Assembly: GCA_017542695.1 (NCBI GenBank)
Contig: JAFXWT010000374.1
Span: forward strand, 1 to 8,983
Origin: Clostridia bacterium
Lineage (GTDB): Bacteria > Bacillota_A > Clostridia > Oscillospirales > CAG-272
DNA length: 8,983 nucleotides
Direction of reading: 5' to 3'
A model generated the notes under the pieces. It saw nothing but the letters and a program-made list of their open reading frames with translations, was not told the DNA's origin and did not search any database. Positions 3-8,412 of this stretch are shown here, piece after piece. Every line of letters starts with the position of its first letter. Within the stretch, counting starts at the first letter, position 1. The position numbers and the translations under genes are program-made.

Positions 3-542
3 ATGGCAAACAAATACGCGGGCACCAAGACCGAGAAAAACCTGTGGGCGGCCTTTGCGGGCGAATCTCAGGCGAGAAACAAATACACATATTTTGCGTC
101 GAAAGCGAAAAAGGAAGGCTACGAGCAGATTTCCGCGCTTTTCTTAAAGACAGCCGACAACGAGAAAGAGCACGCTAAAATGTGGTTCAAGGAGCTCGGC
201 GGCATCGGCACGACGGCCGAAAATCTCGAGGCAGCCGCTGACGGCGAAAATTTCGAGTGGACGGATATGTACGAGGAATTCGCAAAGACGGCCGAAGCCG
301 AGGGCTTCGTTGAGCTTGCGAAGAAATTCCGCGGTGTCGCGGCTATCGAAAAGCATCACGAGGAGCGCTATCGCGCCCTACTGAAGAATGTCGAAGCGCA
401 GGAAGTATTCAAAAAGAGCGAGGTCAAAGTCTGGGAATGCCTCAACTGCGGTCACATCGTGGTCGGAACGTCGGCTCCCGAGGAATGCCCCGTCTGCGCT
501 CATCCGCAGGCATATTTTGAGGTCAACGCCGAGAATTATTGA
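3..542 (+). CDS. rbr: Rubrerythrin (peroxide-reducing di-iron protein)
   Basis: Classical rubrerythrin of 179 residues: a ferritin-like di-iron four-helix domain (about 1-135) followed by a rubredoxin domain (about 140-179). Aligned from memory with the Desulfovibrio vulgaris protein, all di-iron ligands are present: E21, E54 with H57 (ExxH), E82 and E85 (GENFEW), and E116 with H119 (EKHH). The rubredoxin iron site is C146-x2-C149 and C162-x2-C165, in the typical [15 protein letters not shown] context. The family reduces hydrogen peroxide to water in the cytoplasm of anaerobes, with electrons passing from the rubredoxin iron to the di-iron centre. The start at the first in-frame ATG gives the usual N-terminus, but only two bases precede it, so its ribosome binding site and promoter lie outside the window. 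An intrinsic terminator follows directly, so it appears to end its transcript. Identity is secure; the symbol follows common usage. Confidence 0.97.
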
Positions 543-556
543 TTTTTCCGAGCAAC

Positions 557-590
557 AAAGGCAGGATGAAAATTCTGCCTTTTTATTTTT
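557..590 (+). terminator. Intrinsic terminator after rubrerythrin
   Basis: Perfect 8-bp inverted repeat AAAGGCAG (557-564) / CTGCCTTT (575-582) with a 10-nt loop, running into a T-rich stretch to 590. It lies 15 bases after the rubrerythrin stop and separates that gene from the sigma factor unit. Confidence 0.85.
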
Positions 591-599
591 CAAAAAATG

Positions 600-632
600 T
601 GACCTTGGGCATCGGTTTGTCGTTTATATAAA
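600..632 (+). promoter_or_regulatory. Candidate promoter for the sigma factor-serpin unit
   Basis: Two overlapping readings are possible. A housekeeping-type promoter would be TTGGGC (605-610), 16 bases, then TATAAA (627-632). An ECF-type promoter would be TGACCT (600-605), 15 bases, then CGTTTA (621-626), loosely resembling the TGAAAC/CGT pattern of Bacillus ECF sigma factors and so compatible with autoregulation. Neither is close to consensus. The position fits, between the upstream terminator and the sigma factor ribosome binding site (GGAAAGGAG, 642-650). Confidence 0.4.
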
Positions 633-656: not shown

Positions 657-1211
657 ATGGAAGACCGCGAGATCGTTAAATTATTTTTTTCTCGCTCGGA
701 GGACGCGATATCCGAATGCGAGAAAAAATACGGACGGTATCTTATGTCGATAGCGAGCCGCATTCTTGGCAACGACGAGGATGCAAAAGAGACGGTAAAT
801 GACATTTACCTTTATGCTTGGAACAGCATGCCTCCCAAAATTCCCGACGACCTATGCGCTTATCTCGGAATGGTCTGCCGCTCACGCGCGATCGACAAAA
901 GAAAGAGCGAAACGCGCGAAAAACGCGGCGGCAACAGTTACGACGCATCGCTCGACGAACTTGTCGAATGTATTGCCTGTGAAGACGAAAACGTCGTTGA
1001 CAAGATAGCGCTCCGCGACGCGATGAACGCGTTTCTCGGCGAGCTTCCGAAAAAGAGCCGTGTAGTGTTCATGAAGCGGTATTTCTGGCTTCTCACCGTT
1101 TCCGAAATCGCGCAGTCGCAGGGCATGGGCGAAAGCGCCGTCAAAATGACGCTGTCGCGCGTCCGCGAAAAACTGAAAAAATACCTTATGAAAGAGGGTT
1201 TTGTTTTATGA
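657..1211 (+). CDS. ECF-type RNA polymerase sigma factor (sigma-70 family)
   Basis: A 184-residue protein with the two-domain layout of extracytoplasmic-function sigma factors. Region 2 spans about residues 12-88, with the core-binding helix around RILGNDEDAKETVNDIYLYAW and a DNA-melting/-10 segment ending in a basic stretch (RSRAIDKRKSETREKR, 75-90). Region 4 spans about 116-176, with an LPKKSRVVFMKRYF helix and a helix-turn-helix (TVSEIAQSQGMGESAVKMTLSRVREKL) that would read the -35 element. The ATG at 657 sits 6 bases after GGAAAGGAG. The stop overlaps the start of the serpin gene as ATGA, which implies translational coupling. In Firmicutes such sigma factors are usually held inactive by the membrane protein encoded next to them, so the serpin protein is the natural partner. 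Three cysteines (C74, C105, C108) occur, but no metal site can be claimed. The target promoters are unknown. Confidence 0.93.
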   Translation: MEDREIVKLFFSRSEDAISECEKKYGRYLMSIASRILGNDEDAKETVNDIYLYAWNSMPPKIPDDLCAYLGMVCRSRAIDKRKSETREKRGGNSYDASLDELVECIACEDENVVDKIALRDAMNAFLGELPKKSRVVFMKRYFWLLTVSEIAQSQGMGESAVKMTLSRVREKLKKYLMKEGFVL

Positions 1212-2644
1212 AAAAGAACGACATTTCCGAAGCGCTCGGCGCACTCGACGAGAAGTTCATCTCCGAGTCGTCACCGGCAAAAAAGAAAGTAAATCGCAAG
1301 GCGATCGCATGGTCGTCGATCATCGCCGCTGTACTCGTGATCGCCGTCGGCATCGGCGCGATATTCGGCGGCGGCACGAACAATCCGCTCATCATTGAAG
1401 CGCACGCCGTATATGAGGCGGAATATCCCAAAACGGTGCCGTATCCGAAAGTCGGGCTGTTCGGCGTGCCGAGCGAAAAAGGTTACGACGCATGGAACGA
1501 GAGTCGCCGCGAACGCTCGAAATTCTACGGTGCGGGCAAGGGGCTTGAAGCGTTTTTCGAGAAATCAACCGCCGAATTTCTTTCGGGCGCAGGCGACAAA
1601 AACGTCGTTTATTCCCCGCTCAACGTCTATATGGCGCTGGCAATGCTCGCCGAAATGACCGACGGAGACAGCCGCGCACAGATCCTCTCGCTCATAGGCG
1701 CGAAAGATATCGACTCGCTGCGTGAGCAGGCGCACGCAATCTGGAACGCAAACTACTCCGACGACGGAGCGGTCACGAGCATCCTCGCAAGTTCGCTGTG
1801 GATGAACAAGGACATCAACTTCAACGAAAATACCCTGAAAACGCTCGCAAAAAAATATTACGCCTCCTCATTCAAAGGCACGATGGGCTCCGCCGATTAC
1901 ACAAAAGCGTTCCAAAATTGGCTCAACAAACAGACCGGCGGACTGCTCAAAGATCAGATAAACGGGCTCGAGCTCGATCCCGAAACTGTGCTCGCGCTTG
2001 CGACAACGATATACTACCGCGCGAAATGGGACGGTGAATTTTCGAAGTCAGAGACAACAAAAGACGTTTTCCACTCCGCGACAGGCGACGTGACATGCGA
2101 TTTCATGCATCAGACACAGACTTTCGGAACGTACTACTGGGGCGACAATTTTTCAGCCGCAGCGAAGAGCATCGAGGGCAGCGGAAGCATGATGTTCATT
2201 CTCCCGGACGAGGGAATCACGCCTGAACAACTTCTTTCCGACGCGCAGGCGGTGACCTTTATGTTCTCGCGTCAAGGATATGAAAATCACAAGTCGATAA
2301 AAATCAACATGGCCGTTCCGAAATTCGACGTGAACTCAAAAGCAGACCTTATCGACGGGCTGAAAAACCTCGGTGTGAACGACGTTTTCAGCATAATCAA
2401 ATCAGACTTTTCCCCGCTCACGAGCGACGCGACAGCGTATGTGAACAAGGTCGAGCACGGCGCACGCGTCGCGATTGACGAGGAGGGCGTCGTCGCCGCG
2501 GCGTATACCGCCATGATGCTGGCGGGCTCGCCGATGCCGCCGGAGGACGAGGTCGATTTCGTCCTCGACAGACCGTTCATCTTCATCCTTACGGGTATTG
2601 ACGGGCTGCCTCTCTTTGTCGGCATTGTCAATAATGTAAATTGA
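1208..2644 (+). CDS. Membrane-anchored serpin, probable anti-sigma partner
   Basis: 478 residues in three parts. The cytoplasmic N-terminus (1-31, basic near its end) carries DISEALGALDEKFI, resembling the short cytoplasmic segment of many clostridial proteins encoded behind ECF sigma factors. One hydrophobic helix follows (about 32-54) with positive residues on its N-terminal side, placing the rest outside the cell. After a linker (55-110) comes a full serpin fold (about 111-478): NVVYSPLNVYMALAMLAEM (132-150), a TIYYRAKW strand region (267-274), a VPKFDV strand (370-375), and the hinge, reactive loop and C-terminal strands (422-478, ending RPFIFILTGIDGLPLFVGIV). The hinge EEGVVAAAYT (425-434) is of the inhibitory type. 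Serpins trap serine or cysteine proteases by inserting the cleaved loop. ATG 1208 is 9 bases after AGAGGG and overlaps the sigma factor stop. The serpin assignment is strong; the anti-sigma role is inferred from gene order and the N-terminal motif. Confidence 0.93.
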   Translation: MKKNDISEALGALDEKFISESSPAKKKVNRKAIAWSSIIAAVLVIAVGIGAIFGGGTNNPLIIEAHAVYEAEYPKTVPYPKVGLFGVPSEKGYDAWNESRRERSKFYGAGKGLEAFFEKSTAEFLSGAGDKNVVYSPLNVYMALAMLAEMTDGDSRAQILSLIGAKDIDSLREQAHAIWNANYSDDGAVTSILASSLWMNKDINFNENTLKTLAKKYYASSFKGTMGSADYTKAFQNWLNKQTGGLLKDQINGLELDPETVLALATTIYYRAKWDGEFSKSETTKDVFHSATGDVTCDFMHQTQTFGTYYWGDNFSAAAKSIEGSGSMMFILPDEGITPEQLLSDAQAVTFMFSRQGYENHKSIKINMAVPKFDVNSKADLIDGLKNLGVNDVFSIIKSDFSPLTSDATAYVNKVEHGARVAIDEEGVVAAAYTAMMLAGSPMPPEDEVDFVLDRPFIFILTGIDGLPLFVGIVNNVN

Positions 2645-2659
2645 ATTTACCCGCATTTT

Positions 2660-2692
2660 TACGGGCGGCAAAAGCCGCCCGTATATTTTTTT
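2660..2692 (+). terminator. Intrinsic terminator after the serpin gene
   Basis: Perfect 10-bp stem TACGGGCGGC (2660-2669) / GCCGCCCGTA (2674-2683) with an AAAA loop, then a T-rich tail (TATTTTTTT, 2684-2692). It starts 15 bases after the serpin stop and insulates the sigma factor-serpin unit from the next operon. Confidence 0.93.
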
Positions 2693-2765: not shown

Positions 2766-6102
<3,337 letters not shown>

Positions 6103-6103
<1 letters not shown>

Positions 6104-6621
6104 TGGCTGAACTCTGGGACTTATATGACGAACACCGCGCGCCGCTCGGGCGCACCGTCGAGCGCGGCAAACAGGACGGGTGCGCGGCGTATCATGTTGT
6201 CGTCGTCATCGCCGTCAAAAACAGCCGCGGCGAATATCTTATCACGCTCCGCGATAAAGATAAGGAATTTTTCGGCGGGCTTTGGGAGTTCACGGGCGGC
6301 TCGGCGCTCGCGGGAGAGTCGAGCGAAGATGCGGCGCTGCGCGAAACAAAAGAAGAAACGGGCATCGACCACAAAAACTCAAAGCGCGCTCTCGTTTTCA
6401 CGAAAACACGGATATGGGACGACGGAAAGCTCGGCTGGCACGGCGATTTCTGGGATTATTGGCTTTTCGAGGCGGATTTTGACAAAGAAGGCGTCGTCTT
6501 GCAAAAAGGTGAGACCGCCGACGCAAAATGGGCGACGATCGACGAACTTCTCACGCTCGACAAAGCGGGAAAATTCTTCAATCGGGATTACTTGAATCAG
6601 ATACTTAACATTAAGGGGTAA
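6103..6621 (+). CDS. Nudix hydrolase
   Basis: 172-residue Nudix-family protein. The Nudix box is complete: G66-x5-E72-x7-R80-E81-x2-E84-E85-x-G87-I88, which binds the metal and cleaves nucleoside-diphosphate-linked (or other diphosphate) substrates. The N-terminus WDLYDEHRAPLGRTVERG resembles the lead-in of Nudix proteins related to isopentenyl-diphosphate isomerase-like and housecleaning enzymes, but nothing here fixes the substrate. Its start overlaps the ligA stop by one base (TAATG), and obg begins two bases after its stop, so all three are translated from one message. A house-cleaning role for damaged nucleotides would suit a DNA-ligase neighbour but is only inference. Confidence 0.92.
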
Positions 6622-6623
6622 AT

Positions 6624-7904
6624 ATGGCAGATTTTTACGATCACGTCAAAATTCACGTAAAAGCGGGCAACGGCGGCAACGGCTGCATCGCCTTTCACCG
6701 CGAAAAATACATATCGCACGGAGGTCCGTCGGGCGGCGACGGCGGCAACGGCGGCAACGTCGTTTTCGTGATAGACGAGGGCAAGAATACCTTGCTCGAC
6801 TTCCGCACGCGCAAAAAATTCGTCGCACAGAACGGCGGCGACGGCGGCACGGAGAAATTCCACGGCGCGAACGCGCCGGATCTTATAATTCCCGTTCCCG
6901 ACGGGACTGTCATACGCGACGCAGAGACCGGACGGCTGATCAAGGACATGAGCCGATGCGAGCCGTTCACGCTCGCGCGCGGCGGACGCGGCGGCTGGGG
7001 CAACAAGCATTTCGCCACACCGACGCGCCAAGCGCCGCGCTTTGCCAAAAACGGCACCAAGGGCGAGGAATTCGACCTTGCGCTCGAACTGAAAATGCTC
7101 GCCGACGTCGGATTTGTCGGTATGCCCAACGTCGGAAAGTCCACGCTTTTGTCAATGATAAGCGCCGCGCGCCCGAAGATCGCCAATTACCACTTCACGA
7201 CCCTCACCCCCATGCTCGGCGTCGTCGACGTTCACGACGGAAAGGGCTTTGTCGCCGCCGACATTCCGGGGCTGATCGAGGGCGCGTCGGAGGGGCTCGG
7301 ACTCGGTCACGATTTTCTGCGCCACGTGTCGCGGTGCCGCCTGCTCGTTCACGTCGTCGACATTTCGGGCAGCGAGGGACGCGACCCCGTCGAAGATATG
7401 AAAATGATCAACGAGGAATTGAAAAAATACAGTGAAGAACTCGCGTCCCGCCCACAGATAATCGCGGCGAACAAGTGCGATATCCTCGACAAAAACAGCG
7501 TCGATCTTGACGGATTTGAAAAATACGCAGCCGAGCTCGGCTTCCCCGTTATTTACATCAGCGCCGCGTCGGGCGACAACGTCAAGGCGCTCTGCGGCGT
7601 CGTCTACGACCGCCTGCAAACGCTCCCGCCGATAACGATTTACGAGCCGGAGCAGGAGCCCGTTCCCGAGGAACCGTCGTCGCCGACTGACATCACCGCC
7701 GAAAAACGCGACGGCGTGTGGTACATCGAGGGCAAGTGGCTCGAATGGCTGATGAGCGGCATCAACTTCGACGACCGCGAATCGCTTAACTACTTCGACC
7801 GTATGCTCCGCCAGCATGGCGTGATGGACAAAATGCGCGAGCTCGGTGTCGCCGACGGCGACGAGGTCAATATGTATGATATCGAGTTTGATTTCGTGGA
7901 GTAA
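6624..7904 (+). CDS. obgE: GTPase Obg (CgtA), ribosome assembly and stress GTPase
   Basis: 426-residue Obg with all three domains. The glycine-rich Obg fold spans 1-158, with DHVKIHVKAGNGGNG and GGPSGGDGGNGGNV. The G domain spans about 159-330: Walker A GMPNVGKS (166-173), switch region with TT (192-193), DIPG (213-216), NKCD for guanine (283-286) and SAA (313-315). The C-terminal OCT domain (about 356-426) contains WYIEGKWLEWLMSGINFDD, typical of Gram-positive Obg proteins. The family binds the 50S subunit late in assembly and links growth to nucleotide state. ATG 6624 follows AAGGGG (6613-6618) by five bases and lies two bases after the Nudix stop. It is not next to rplU/rpmA as in many bacteria. 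Confidence 0.98.
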   Translation: MADFYDHVKIHVKAGNGGNGCIAFHREKYISHGGPSGGDGGNGGNVVFVIDEGKNTLLDFRTRKKFVAQNGGDGGTEKFHGANAPDLIIPVPDGTVIRDAETGRLIKDMSRCEPFTLARGGRGGWGNKHFATPTRQAPRFAKNGTKGEEFDLALELKMLADVGFVGMPNVGKSTLLSMISAARPKIANYHFTTLTPMLGVVDVHDGKGFVAADIPGLIEGASEGLGLGHDFLRHVSRCRLLVHVVDISGSEGRDPVEDMKMINEELKKYSEELASRPQIIAANKCDILDKNSVDLDGFEKYAAELGFPVIYISAASGDNVKALCGVVYDRLQTLPPITIYEPEQEPVPEEPSSPTDITAEKRDGVWYIEGKWLEWLMSGINFDDRESLNYFDRMLRQHGVMDKMRELGVADGDEVNMYDIEFDFVE

Positions 7905-7907
7905 CTT

Positions 7908-7922
7908 ATGACCTATGGGTAG
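7908..7922 (+). other. Five-codon mini-ORF (four sense codons) over the start of the next gene
   Basis: ATGACCTATGGGTAG sits six bases after GGAG (7898-7901), the best-placed start for that ribosome binding site. It encodes only M-T-Y-G, and its stop lies just inside the next gene, whose own ATG (7915) is 13 bases from the GGAG. It may act as a coupling or dampening element, or be chance. Confidence 0.35.
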
Positions 7923-8412
7923 ACAAGTAAATTTTTTTGCAAATCAACAAGACCTTGACGAACTTTTTGAATTCATTTCTTCTGTCGGCGGGATAGCTAT
8001 CGATCAGAACGGAAAAGAAATTTCGGAAAAATTATTTGACATTTTGTCAAGCAGCAAGATCGCGTGCTTTTTCATAAAAGCCAAAAACGTCGACGTTCTT
8101 TTCAATAAATATCATCCCGACACTGTTTGTCCCGCAGCGTCGGGCATTCTCGAACTTGATTTTTCGTTTTTCGAAAACGAAAAAGACGTTATATGTGGGA
8201 GGATTTATCTGAGTACGGGTATTTCTTCGCCTGACATCCCGGAAATACGAGAAATTTTCAATAGGATCAAAAAACACATCACGAAAAATTACGTTCATGA
8301 GAAAACGCAGTCAAATCAAAAAACGTATCTCGGGAAATTCGCGTTTGAAGAATTGTGTTCGGGCAATCGTCATATCGCCAATGCGCTCTGCGATTTTACG
8401 TTTTCAGATTAA
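7915..8412 (+). CDS. Hypothetical cytoplasmic protein, AT-richer than neighbours
   Basis: 165 residues, family not recognised with confidence. ATG 7915 is the only reasonable start, because an in-frame TGA lies at 7909-7911. It opens MGRQVNFFANQQDLDELFEFI and has mixed alpha/beta character: acidic and aromatic segments, a KEISEKLFDIL helix, and a middle ILELDFSFFENEKDVICGRIYLS strand region. There is no signal peptide, membrane helix or metal motif; cysteines are scattered. The similar-looking opening (MxRQxNFY...) recurs in small uncharacterised Firmicutes proteins, as I recall, but this is not a functional clue. Base composition falls sharply: sampled 60-base stretches are about 35-40% GC here, against about 65% in a sampled stretch of obg. 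That hints at recent acquisition. It starts 11 bases after the obg stop with no obvious terminator between, so it is probably read through from the upstream operon. Confidence 0.8.
   Translation: MGRQVNFFANQQDLDELFEFISSVGGIAIDQNGKEISEKLFDILSSSKIACFFIKAKNVDVLFNKYHPDTVCPAASGILELDFSFFENEKDVICGRIYLSTGISSPDIPEIREIFNRIKKHITKNYVHEKTQSNQKTYLGKFAFEELCSGNRHIANALCDFTFSD

Follow-up and report, generated by a model that had tools for sequence, protein, structure and literature searches.

The window analysed here is a stretch of 8,983 nucleotides from a Clostridia bacterium (contig JAFXWT010000374.1 of assembly GCA_017542695.1; Oscillospirales, CAG-272). Its subject is a two-gene unit, in which an open reading frame (ORF) for an extracytoplasmic function (ECF) sigma factor (657-1211, + strand, 184 amino acids [aa]) is followed, with a shared ATGA, by an ORF for a serpin (1208-2644, + strand, 478 aa; Table 1). 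An earlier note on this DNA, made from the sequence alone, had described an ECF gene overlapping by ATGA a gene for a cytoplasmic tail, one membrane helix and a complete outer serpin domain, with terminators on both sides. The overlap is borne out by ORF and Pfam analysis, and the make-up of the partner by Pfam, hydropathy and charge. The terminators are recovered as hairpins with T-rich tails at 557-582 and 2660-2683, both at the expected intergenic positions flanking the pair. A scan of the window returned 25 terminator-like sites against a shuffle mean of 16.9 (standard deviation 4.1), so any one such match is weak evidence.

The sigma protein matches Sigma70_r2, Sigma70_r4, Sigma70_r4_2 and Sigma70_ECF in Pfam, all above the curated cut-offs, and, at about 180 aa with regions 2 and 4, it has the make-up that defines an ECF sigma factor. 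Its partner carries the Pfam domain Serpin (PF00079) over residues 128-476, covering profile positions 18-369 of 370 (E 7.8e-63), a complete domain that places it in the serpin superfamily. No other Pfam domain was found in the partner at E up to 0.001 and no NCBIfam match; the outer domains of RsiV (Pfam at E up to 0.001; NCBIfam) and the N-terminal domain of RsgI (Pfam) were not found, and the cognate sigma factor is an ECF, not SigI. The tail itself matches no Pfam or NCBIfam model above its cut-off. The most hydrophobic 19-residue stretch of the partner is residues 38-56. Basic residues are concentrated before the helix (more before than after it in 69 of 72 serpin partners), and the N-terminus is therefore predicted to lie inside the cell and the serpin outside.

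The pairing recurs far beyond the window. Loci were chosen by similarity to the window serpin or tail and hence are not a random sample; a scan of genome contigs supplied 15 of them, others were obtained by searching whole genomes with a tail-plus-serpin profile, and the samples partly overlap. The profile matched in 14 of the 14 genomes of the 15 initial loci, in 113 of 146 genomes of one family (E 0.001, tail-only matches counted too), in 38 of 250 of a second family (E 1e-60), in 55 of 345 of the first family's order (E 1e-80) and in 13 of 391 of its class (E 1e-60). For the census, the family search contributed its returned loci and 40 more stretches, a subset of the matching places, and the order search its returned loci and 20 of 27 further stretches; 13 matching places of the second-family search that had no locus were left out. 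Deduplication gave 192 serpin ORFs, or 184 genes once 8 incomplete ones were left out.

Among these genes, an ECF gene lies immediately upstream of 71 of 75 tailed serpins and of 0 of 76 with a lipobox or short anchor (Fisher p 8.6e-39, computed without kinship correction). The remaining 33 of the 184 include 16 behind other sigma-like genes. In the clade of the window serpin (135 genes), 74 are tailed and 70 of these have an ECF gene of the window type directly upstream; L130 has one about 230-250 bases upstream, and at L139 a tailed serpin is the second serpin behind the same sigma gene. None of the 25 lipobox and none of the 10 short-anchored serpins of this clade has an upstream ECF gene; of its other 26 genes, 16 lie behind another sigma-like gene and 10 do not (3 of those at contig ends). 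The distant clade (49 genes) holds one tailed gene, at L045, and this one has an ECF gene; its remaining 48 genes lack both the tail and the ECF gene. In a tree built from the serpin domain only (162 rows, with L130 scored as having an ECF gene), the tail state changes at least 26 times, and on supported branches 10-11 of 12 independent contrasts agree and 0 are opposite (p 0.001 to 0.002). The earlier note had suggested searching for ECF genes followed by membrane-serpin genes: such pairs occur in many genomes, which excludes restriction to a single one. A carrier known as a strain is Pseudoflavonifractor phocaeensis An507 (L004). We conclude that the sigma–serpin pairing is a real, recurrent system.

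The tail is conserved and is shared with many partners that have no serpin. Its consensus (24 members) starts MKSxKLQDAIGMVDExLVxRA and continues with basic residues and then the helix. The tail model matches 115 of the best 120 of 4620 window-serpin homologues, the 120 that were used; P0034 and P0047 are among the 115, yet lack the cytoplasmic motif by eye and were matched through the helix. The N-terminal segment singled out earlier, DISEALGALDEKFI, is part of the conserved tail, and a model trained on non-serpin partners only recovers the window tail (E 2.2e-13) together with 114 of the best 120 homologues; it finds none of 61 lipobox serpins.

Searching with a profile of the tail alone gave matches in 114 of 146 genomes (E 0.01), and the sample drawn in this way comprised 30 returned loci and 60 more from the longer match list. 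In the 30 returned loci, 30 of 31 tail genes follow an ECF gene, the exception lying near a contig end. Altogether 158 unique sigma–tail pairs were obtained, 72 with a serpin and 86 with a non-serpin outer part; the gene gap is -4 (a 4-base overlap) in 118 of the 158, the adjacency and translational coupling that characterise anti-sigma factor genes. Eight tail genes had no ECF match: L228 and L280 lie at contig ends, the one at L139 is second in a tandem, L146 has an ECF gene by another count, L089 matches the tail weakly and L176 is a fragment, which leaves L012 and L142. The outer parts of 85 non-serpin partners include Beta_propel (5), DUF4901 (5), LRR_5 (3), DUF4179 (2) and LRR_8 (2), and at least 68 of the 85 have no Pfam match at E 0.001. 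An NCBIfam 'anti-sigma factor' model touches 3 of the 85 (best E 0.0003), L242 reaching 15 bits against a cut-off of 100. The tail marks a large sensor family that has no family name in Pfam or NCBIfam. As a separate observation, loci L199-L288 carry the sigma-partner tail with many other outer domains, mostly unnamed, with up to 15 tail matches in one genome (G025).

Co-variation between tail and sigma factor was measured as mutual information with average product correction (APC-MI) in 155 of the 158 pairs (effective number 130), against 100 re-pairings. The top inter-protein cells were sigma 137 with tail 20 (0.407), 136 with 20 (0.337) and 146 with 7 (0.317), followed by 129 with 17 (0.260), 183 with 5 (0.231) and 129 with 16 (0.228). 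All six exceed 0.187, the maximum of the re-pairings, and all lie in tail columns 1-25; no cell in columns 26-50, helix included, exceeds that value. Sigma columns 129, 136, 137, 146 and 183 correspond to window residues 128, 135, 136, 145 and 182, the first four in region 4 and the last behind it. Each of the six cells beat 500 shuffles separately in serpin (n=70) and non-serpin (n=85) pairs. Charge swaps (R-E, D-R, R-D) are visible in the pairs: sigma Arg136 goes with tail Glu20 in 58, and where Arg136 is missing tail 20 is often Arg (GR 11, CR 10, AR 3, MR 3), with RR also present (4); sigma 137 and tail 20 combine as DR 11, NR 15 and RD 10.

Cognate partners were then matched within genomes for 67 sigma factors from genomes with several pairs, the genome groups being assigned by hand from locus tables. 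With fixed columns and weights from pairs below 50% identity, the cognate came first for 55-56 of 67 (chance 24), a figure into which the choice of columns leaks; five draws of helix columns gave 18-28. When columns and weights both came from training halves, 31-36 of 67 held-out cognates came first (chance 24), with p between 0.001 and 0.05 in five splits; the 136/137-20 link was among the top six in 10 of 10 training halves.

A model of the complex was obtained with AlphaFold2 as a linked chain of the sigma factor from a related locus (L150), a read-through linker, the tail and the helix, on an alignment of 46 sigma rows and three linked chains. Two earlier sigma–tail alignments (A3 and A4), in which MAFFT laid tail rows on sigma, were dropped. 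The model has a predicted template modelling score (pTM) of 0.76 and two short helices in the tail, where the mean per-residue confidence (pLDDT) is 78 for model residues 201-210 and 92 for 211-220, which are tail residues 5-24. The window serpin modelled without sigma has two short helices at similar places, with pLDDT 40 and 46 (residues 1-20); from residue 91 on its block means are 75-93, save for 431-450 (52 and 39), and an open reactive loop at 436-449 stays below 50. In structural comparisons the L150 sigma model matches SigW, SigK and RpoE, and the sigma part of the linked model matches solved ECF sigma factors, several of them from anti-sigma complexes; model residues after 186 are barely covered, so this comparison speaks for the sigma part. 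The window serpin model finds tengpin (2pef) and other serpins with Foldseek.

Two further proposals of the earlier note can be read against these results. Its link between tail and sigma factor holds in the structural part, in that the tail co-varies with sigma, mostly with region 4; the complex prediction that it had suggested gives a tail that is confident beside the L150 sigma and not in the window serpin alone, these being different sequences and alignments. That the tail is a sigma partner, and probably binds the sigma factor, is well supported by these sequence comparisons.

The reactive loop could be parsed in most coupled serpins of the clade; the pattern failed on 5 of the 86 coupled serpins, on 10 of the 49 uncoupled ones and on 31 of the 49 in the distant clade. 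In the 81 parsed coupled loops the hinge has P17 Glu in 74, P15 Gly in 81, P12 Ala in 64 or Gly in 16, P10 Ala in 70 and P8 Thr in 64; P1 is Gly, Ala or Ser in 64 and P1' Ala, Gly or Ser in 58, and 54 share the commonest loop length. The P17-P8 pattern of inhibitory serpins, E-x-G-[T/S]-x-A-A-A-x-T, and their canonical loop length are present, with deviations at P14 and P9. Alignments place PPE at P3'-P5' of the window serpin. The 39 parsed uncoupled serpins have the same loop pattern. The reactive loop is kept much as in inhibitory serpins, and the protein may likewise inhibit proteases through a covalent complex. Small P1 residues suit elastase- or subtilisin-like enzymes.

Of 72 serpin partners, 47 have an Ala-X-Ala (AXA) motif in the first 30 residues after the helix (shuffle mean 26.5, maximum 37), as do 10 of 85 non-serpin partners (shuffle mean 9.7). 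A narrower count on parsed rows gave 34 of 72 among coupled serpins, 0 of 18 among lipobox ones and 7 of 15 among the remaining uncoupled, non-lipobox members; here the stalk could not be parsed in 14 of the 86 coupled serpins, in 7 of 25 with a lipobox and in 9 of 24 others.

The same serpin clade is joined to further sigma modules. A shorter ECF type with a different cytoplasmic tail is coupled to eight of its genes (L031-L033, L060, L061, L064, L149 and L152); L077 is coupled to another ECF, and L151 and L167/L168 to divergent ECFs. L147 has a tail like that of the second type, and no ECF gene was recognised upstream of it. These modules were recognised partly through their ECF neighbour and were therefore excluded from the tail statistics (the contrasts and the 71/75 versus 0/76). 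At L070 (2949-3398, - strand) the gene just upstream of a tailed membrane serpin encodes an XRE-type helix-turn-helix (HTH_3) fused to sigma region 4, with no region 2 by Pfam. The protein upstream of the partner at L155 reads like that of L070, that of L071 begins like it, and L156 was assigned to this type by score and an identical partner tail only. In such a protein, the sigma4 docking site may have been taken over by a regulator.

Some loci depart from the simple two-gene layout. A second serpin ORF downstream of the pair is seldom seen: 4 cases in 64, one being a fragment of a broken gene. L010 (276-3814) strings together a sigma gene, a tailed serpin and, from another clade, a lipoprotein-like serpin, possibly a sensor and a shield in one operon. 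At L139 and L145 a second serpin gene lies directly behind the sigma–serpin pair, tailed in L139 and with a plain membrane anchor in L145. L078 and L055 (genome G135) are two consecutive sigma–serpin units, in which the first serpin gene is broken and its match split over two frames. A Chloroflexi contig, L015, has four tandem serpin genes and no ECF match.

All ORFs of the window are on the + strand (Table 1). The GDSL hydrolase downstream of the pair, probably a surface protein, contains a long region rich in Thr and Ser and, at its C-terminus, a hydrophobic segment that ends in basic residues. By eye, we take the long ORF ending at 6103 (+) to be an NAD-dependent DNA ligase and the ORF at 6624-7904 (+) to be an Obg-type GTPase; the last ORF is presumably ribosomal protein L33-like. 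An Rfam scan of the window gave no match. Upstream of sigma genes, the ECF-like promoter pattern TG[AT]AAC-N14-18-CG[TA] occurs in 12 of 151 regions (shuffle mean 1.3, maximum 3), and the window's own candidate does not fit it. A dyad scan for a shared promoter yielded mainly pairs of A/T runs and was set aside. Since ECF-like motifs, enriched but rare, occur in just 12-14 of the 151 regions, autoregulation is put forward tentatively.

Table 1. Features of the window, with positions counted from its first nucleotide.
Feature	Position	Strand	Basis or remark
Rubrerythrin	3-542	+	5' neighbour of sigma gene
Terminator-like hairpin upstream of the sigma–serpin unit	557-582	+	11-pair stem, T-rich tail; between rubrerythrin gene and sigma gene
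Candidate ECF-type promoter, TGTGAC-N17-CGTT; possible autoregulation (hypothesis)	598-624	+	Read from sequence
ECF sigma factor, 184 aa, regions 2 and 4	657-1211	+	Pfam
Sigma region 4, residues 124-173	1026-1175	+	Pfam; contains co-varying window residues 128, 135, 136 and 145
Membrane serpin, putative anti-sigma-type partner, 478 aa	1208-2644	+	ORF, Pfam; ATGA overlap with sigma
Cytoplasmic tail, residues 1-37; motif at about residues 5-21, putative sigma binder	1208-1318	+	Conservation, co-variation, model
Transmembrane helix, residues 38-56	1319-1375	+	Hydropathy; AlphaFold2 helix at 35-52
A-H-A motif, residues 65-67, candidate signal-peptidase site 1 (hypothesis)	1400-1408	+	Sequence
Serpin domain, residues 128-476	1589-2635	+	Pfam; Foldseek match to tengpin 2pef, E 3.2e-30
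Hinge and reactive-centre loop, P17 to P5', residues 425-446	2480-2545	+	P15 Gly427, P1 Ser441; alpha-1-antitrypsin register
Intrinsic terminator-like hairpin 3' of serpin gene	2660-2683	+	10-pair stem, 8 G-C pairs, then T run
GDSL-type hydrolase, Thr-rich stretch	2766-4115	+	3' neighbour of serpin gene
Nudix hydrolase	6103-6621	+	
165-aa ORF without family	7915-8412	+	No Pfam or NCBIfam match at E 0.001

CnrY, part of a metal-response system, resembles the window tail in layout. In the class II system CnrH/CnrY, the text available of the source describes a short two-helix cytoplasmic segment that contacts sigma4 and sigma2, the first helix lying on sigma4 (PMC7406223), and the tail in the linked-chain model likewise forms two short helices. 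The closest parallel in mode of working is SigV/RsiV of Bacillus subtilis, also an ECF gene paired with a membrane protein, the outer part of which recognises a host defence enzyme directly; the excerpt of that source reports a conserved AXA near the helix, signal peptidase as the site-1 enzyme, opening by lysozyme binding, and activation by binding for which catalysis is not required (PMC4183432). Unlike RsiV, the window partner has a serpin as its outer domain; it would be aimed at a protease and would sense it as a one-shot conformational trap. SigI/RsgI of Clostridium thermocellum also pairs membrane anti-sigma factors with varied outer sensor domains, and in Clostridia, but with SigI instead of an ECF and with polysaccharide ligands, as far as the excerpts of the two sources go (PMC3990059, PMC12484212).

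The window serpin also resembles siropins and other Group T bacterial serpins, which are of the inhibitory type and some of which come from gut Firmicutes, according to the sections available (PMC5127057, PMC8233489). The main text of the siropin paper mentions no transmembrane segment, signal peptide, anchor or operon and, in the places inspected, has the word sigma only as the name of a supplier (PMC5127057). A serpin phylogeny describes prokaryotes, in the part available, as having no complex proteolytic signalling pathways and as not using the regulatory networks in which serpins often take part in higher eukaryotes (PMC8233489). The earlier note knew of no system in which a serpin is the anti-sigma sensor, and searches of a PubMed Central (PMC) collection, with subscription papers mostly outside it, gave no paper whose title or displayed abstract presents a serpin as a sigma regulator. 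The pair belongs to a known kind, an ECF sigma factor with a membrane sensor; for the serpin as sensor domain no precedent was found in that literature.

We favour, with a probability of about 0.55, the reading that the window partner is a transmembrane anti-sigma-type regulator with the serpin as sensor, working much as RsiV does. Gene coupling, tail–sigma co-variation, topology and an inhibitory-type hinge are supported by the observations above. From these we infer the rest, namely the anti-sigma sign of the tail, a protease as the signal, a change in the stalk, release by regulated proteolysis at site 1 and site 2, and a regulon. The tail would dock on region 4, perhaps also region 2, of its own sigma factor and keep it at the membrane, in the manner of a short class-II-like anti-sigma segment. 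An external serine protease that prefers small P1 residues (elastase- or subtilisin-like) would attack the reactive loop of the outer serpin. The loop would then insert into the central sheet in the stressed-to-relaxed transition, whether the protease is trapped or cuts the loop, and so alter the juxtamembrane stalk. This may open the AXA site to cleavage by signal peptidase; next, a site-2 protease would free the sigma factor, which would turn on its regulon. The earlier note's idea of a grip on the sigma factor that could alter when the loop is cut or a protease trapped is consistent with the inhibitory-type hinge and with AXA after the helix. On a wider scale, the odds seem about even that several sigma/partner modules repeatedly recruited Clostridia serpins as single-use protease sensors, with the stressed-to-relaxed transition as the transmembrane signal that releases an ECF sigma factor.

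A number of observations weigh against this reading. P14 is Val in 47 or Cys in 26 of the 81 parsed loops (73/81), not the usual Thr, and P9 is Tyr in 50 or Phe in 21 (71/81), not the usual Ala. The loop holds no sensor mark, because coupled and uncoupled loops do not differ. By register, unless the true site is shifted, P1-P1' of the window serpin is Ser-Pro, and Pro at P1' is poorly tolerated by many serine proteases. No AXA is present in 25 of 72 serpin partners, and AXA could be a constitutive release site, since 7 of 15 uncoupled non-lipobox serpins carry it. A site-2 protease family occurs in 8 of 8 genomes, but its presence says nothing specific because all 14 of 14 controls have it too. 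On the side of the tail, the co-variation signal can be inflated by shared ancestry, the five links other than 136/137-20 vary between training halves, and one of the five held-out splits reached p 0.05. The models were judged by pLDDT and pTM, not by contacts; the two differ in sequence and alignment, and the tail part of the linked-chain alignment has three rows only. The tailed serpins at L012 and L142 have no ECF gene in the stretch examined.

The best of the alternatives, which we hold to be unlikely, takes the tail as a true anti-sigma segment and the serpin as output: the sigma factor would control a membrane-bound protease shield, and the signal would enter otherwise, through membrane stress or through a site-1 protease that responds to some other cue. 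The uncoupled members of this clade resemble lipoproteins for the most part and share the hinge and P1 pattern, which makes a purely protective serpin plausible; a few operons (L010, L145) contain a second, untailed serpin gene. Against a shield stands the behaviour of the tail, which also bears beta-propellers, leucine-rich repeats and DUF4901, as swappable sensors would, and the joining of serpins to several different sigma types.

It is also possible, but we think quite doubtful, that the serpin senses without being cut, through reversible binding of a protease or ligand or as a non-inhibitory ligand- or heat-sensing serpin, the binding exposing the stalk as lysozyme does with RsiV. The unusual residues at P14 and P9 and the Pro at P1' of the window serpin would suit such a sensor, and so would the activation of RsiV by binding without catalysis described in the excerpt (PMC4183432). 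Yet P15 is Gly in 81 of 81 loops, P12-P10 are mostly small, the commonest length is kept in 54 of 81, and the loop is like that of uncoupled serpins.

We regard it as improbable that the tail is a positive co-regulator or a membrane tether of the sigma factor instead of an inhibitor. Co-variation and model indicate an interaction and not its sign; however, gene order, translational overlap, a single helix and a positive-inside tail fit anti-sigma partners as generally known, and CnrY, in the text available, is also a short two-helix segment on sigma4 and sigma2 (PMC7406223). A coincidental neighbourhood of tail and sigma genes that do not interact, to which L012 and L142 might be appealed, is hardly credible beside the 71/75 versus 0/76, the tree-independent contrasts and co-variation beyond all shuffles.

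If the favoured reading is true, the pair would be a case of bacterial proteolytic signalling through a serpin. It would give the sigma–serpin pair, found across Clostridia and in many gut-derived loci by their titles, a testable role in turning protease activity, from host elastases or the subtilisins of competitors, into gene expression. The widespread unnamed tail with its exchangeable outer domains is a lead to many undescribed sensors.

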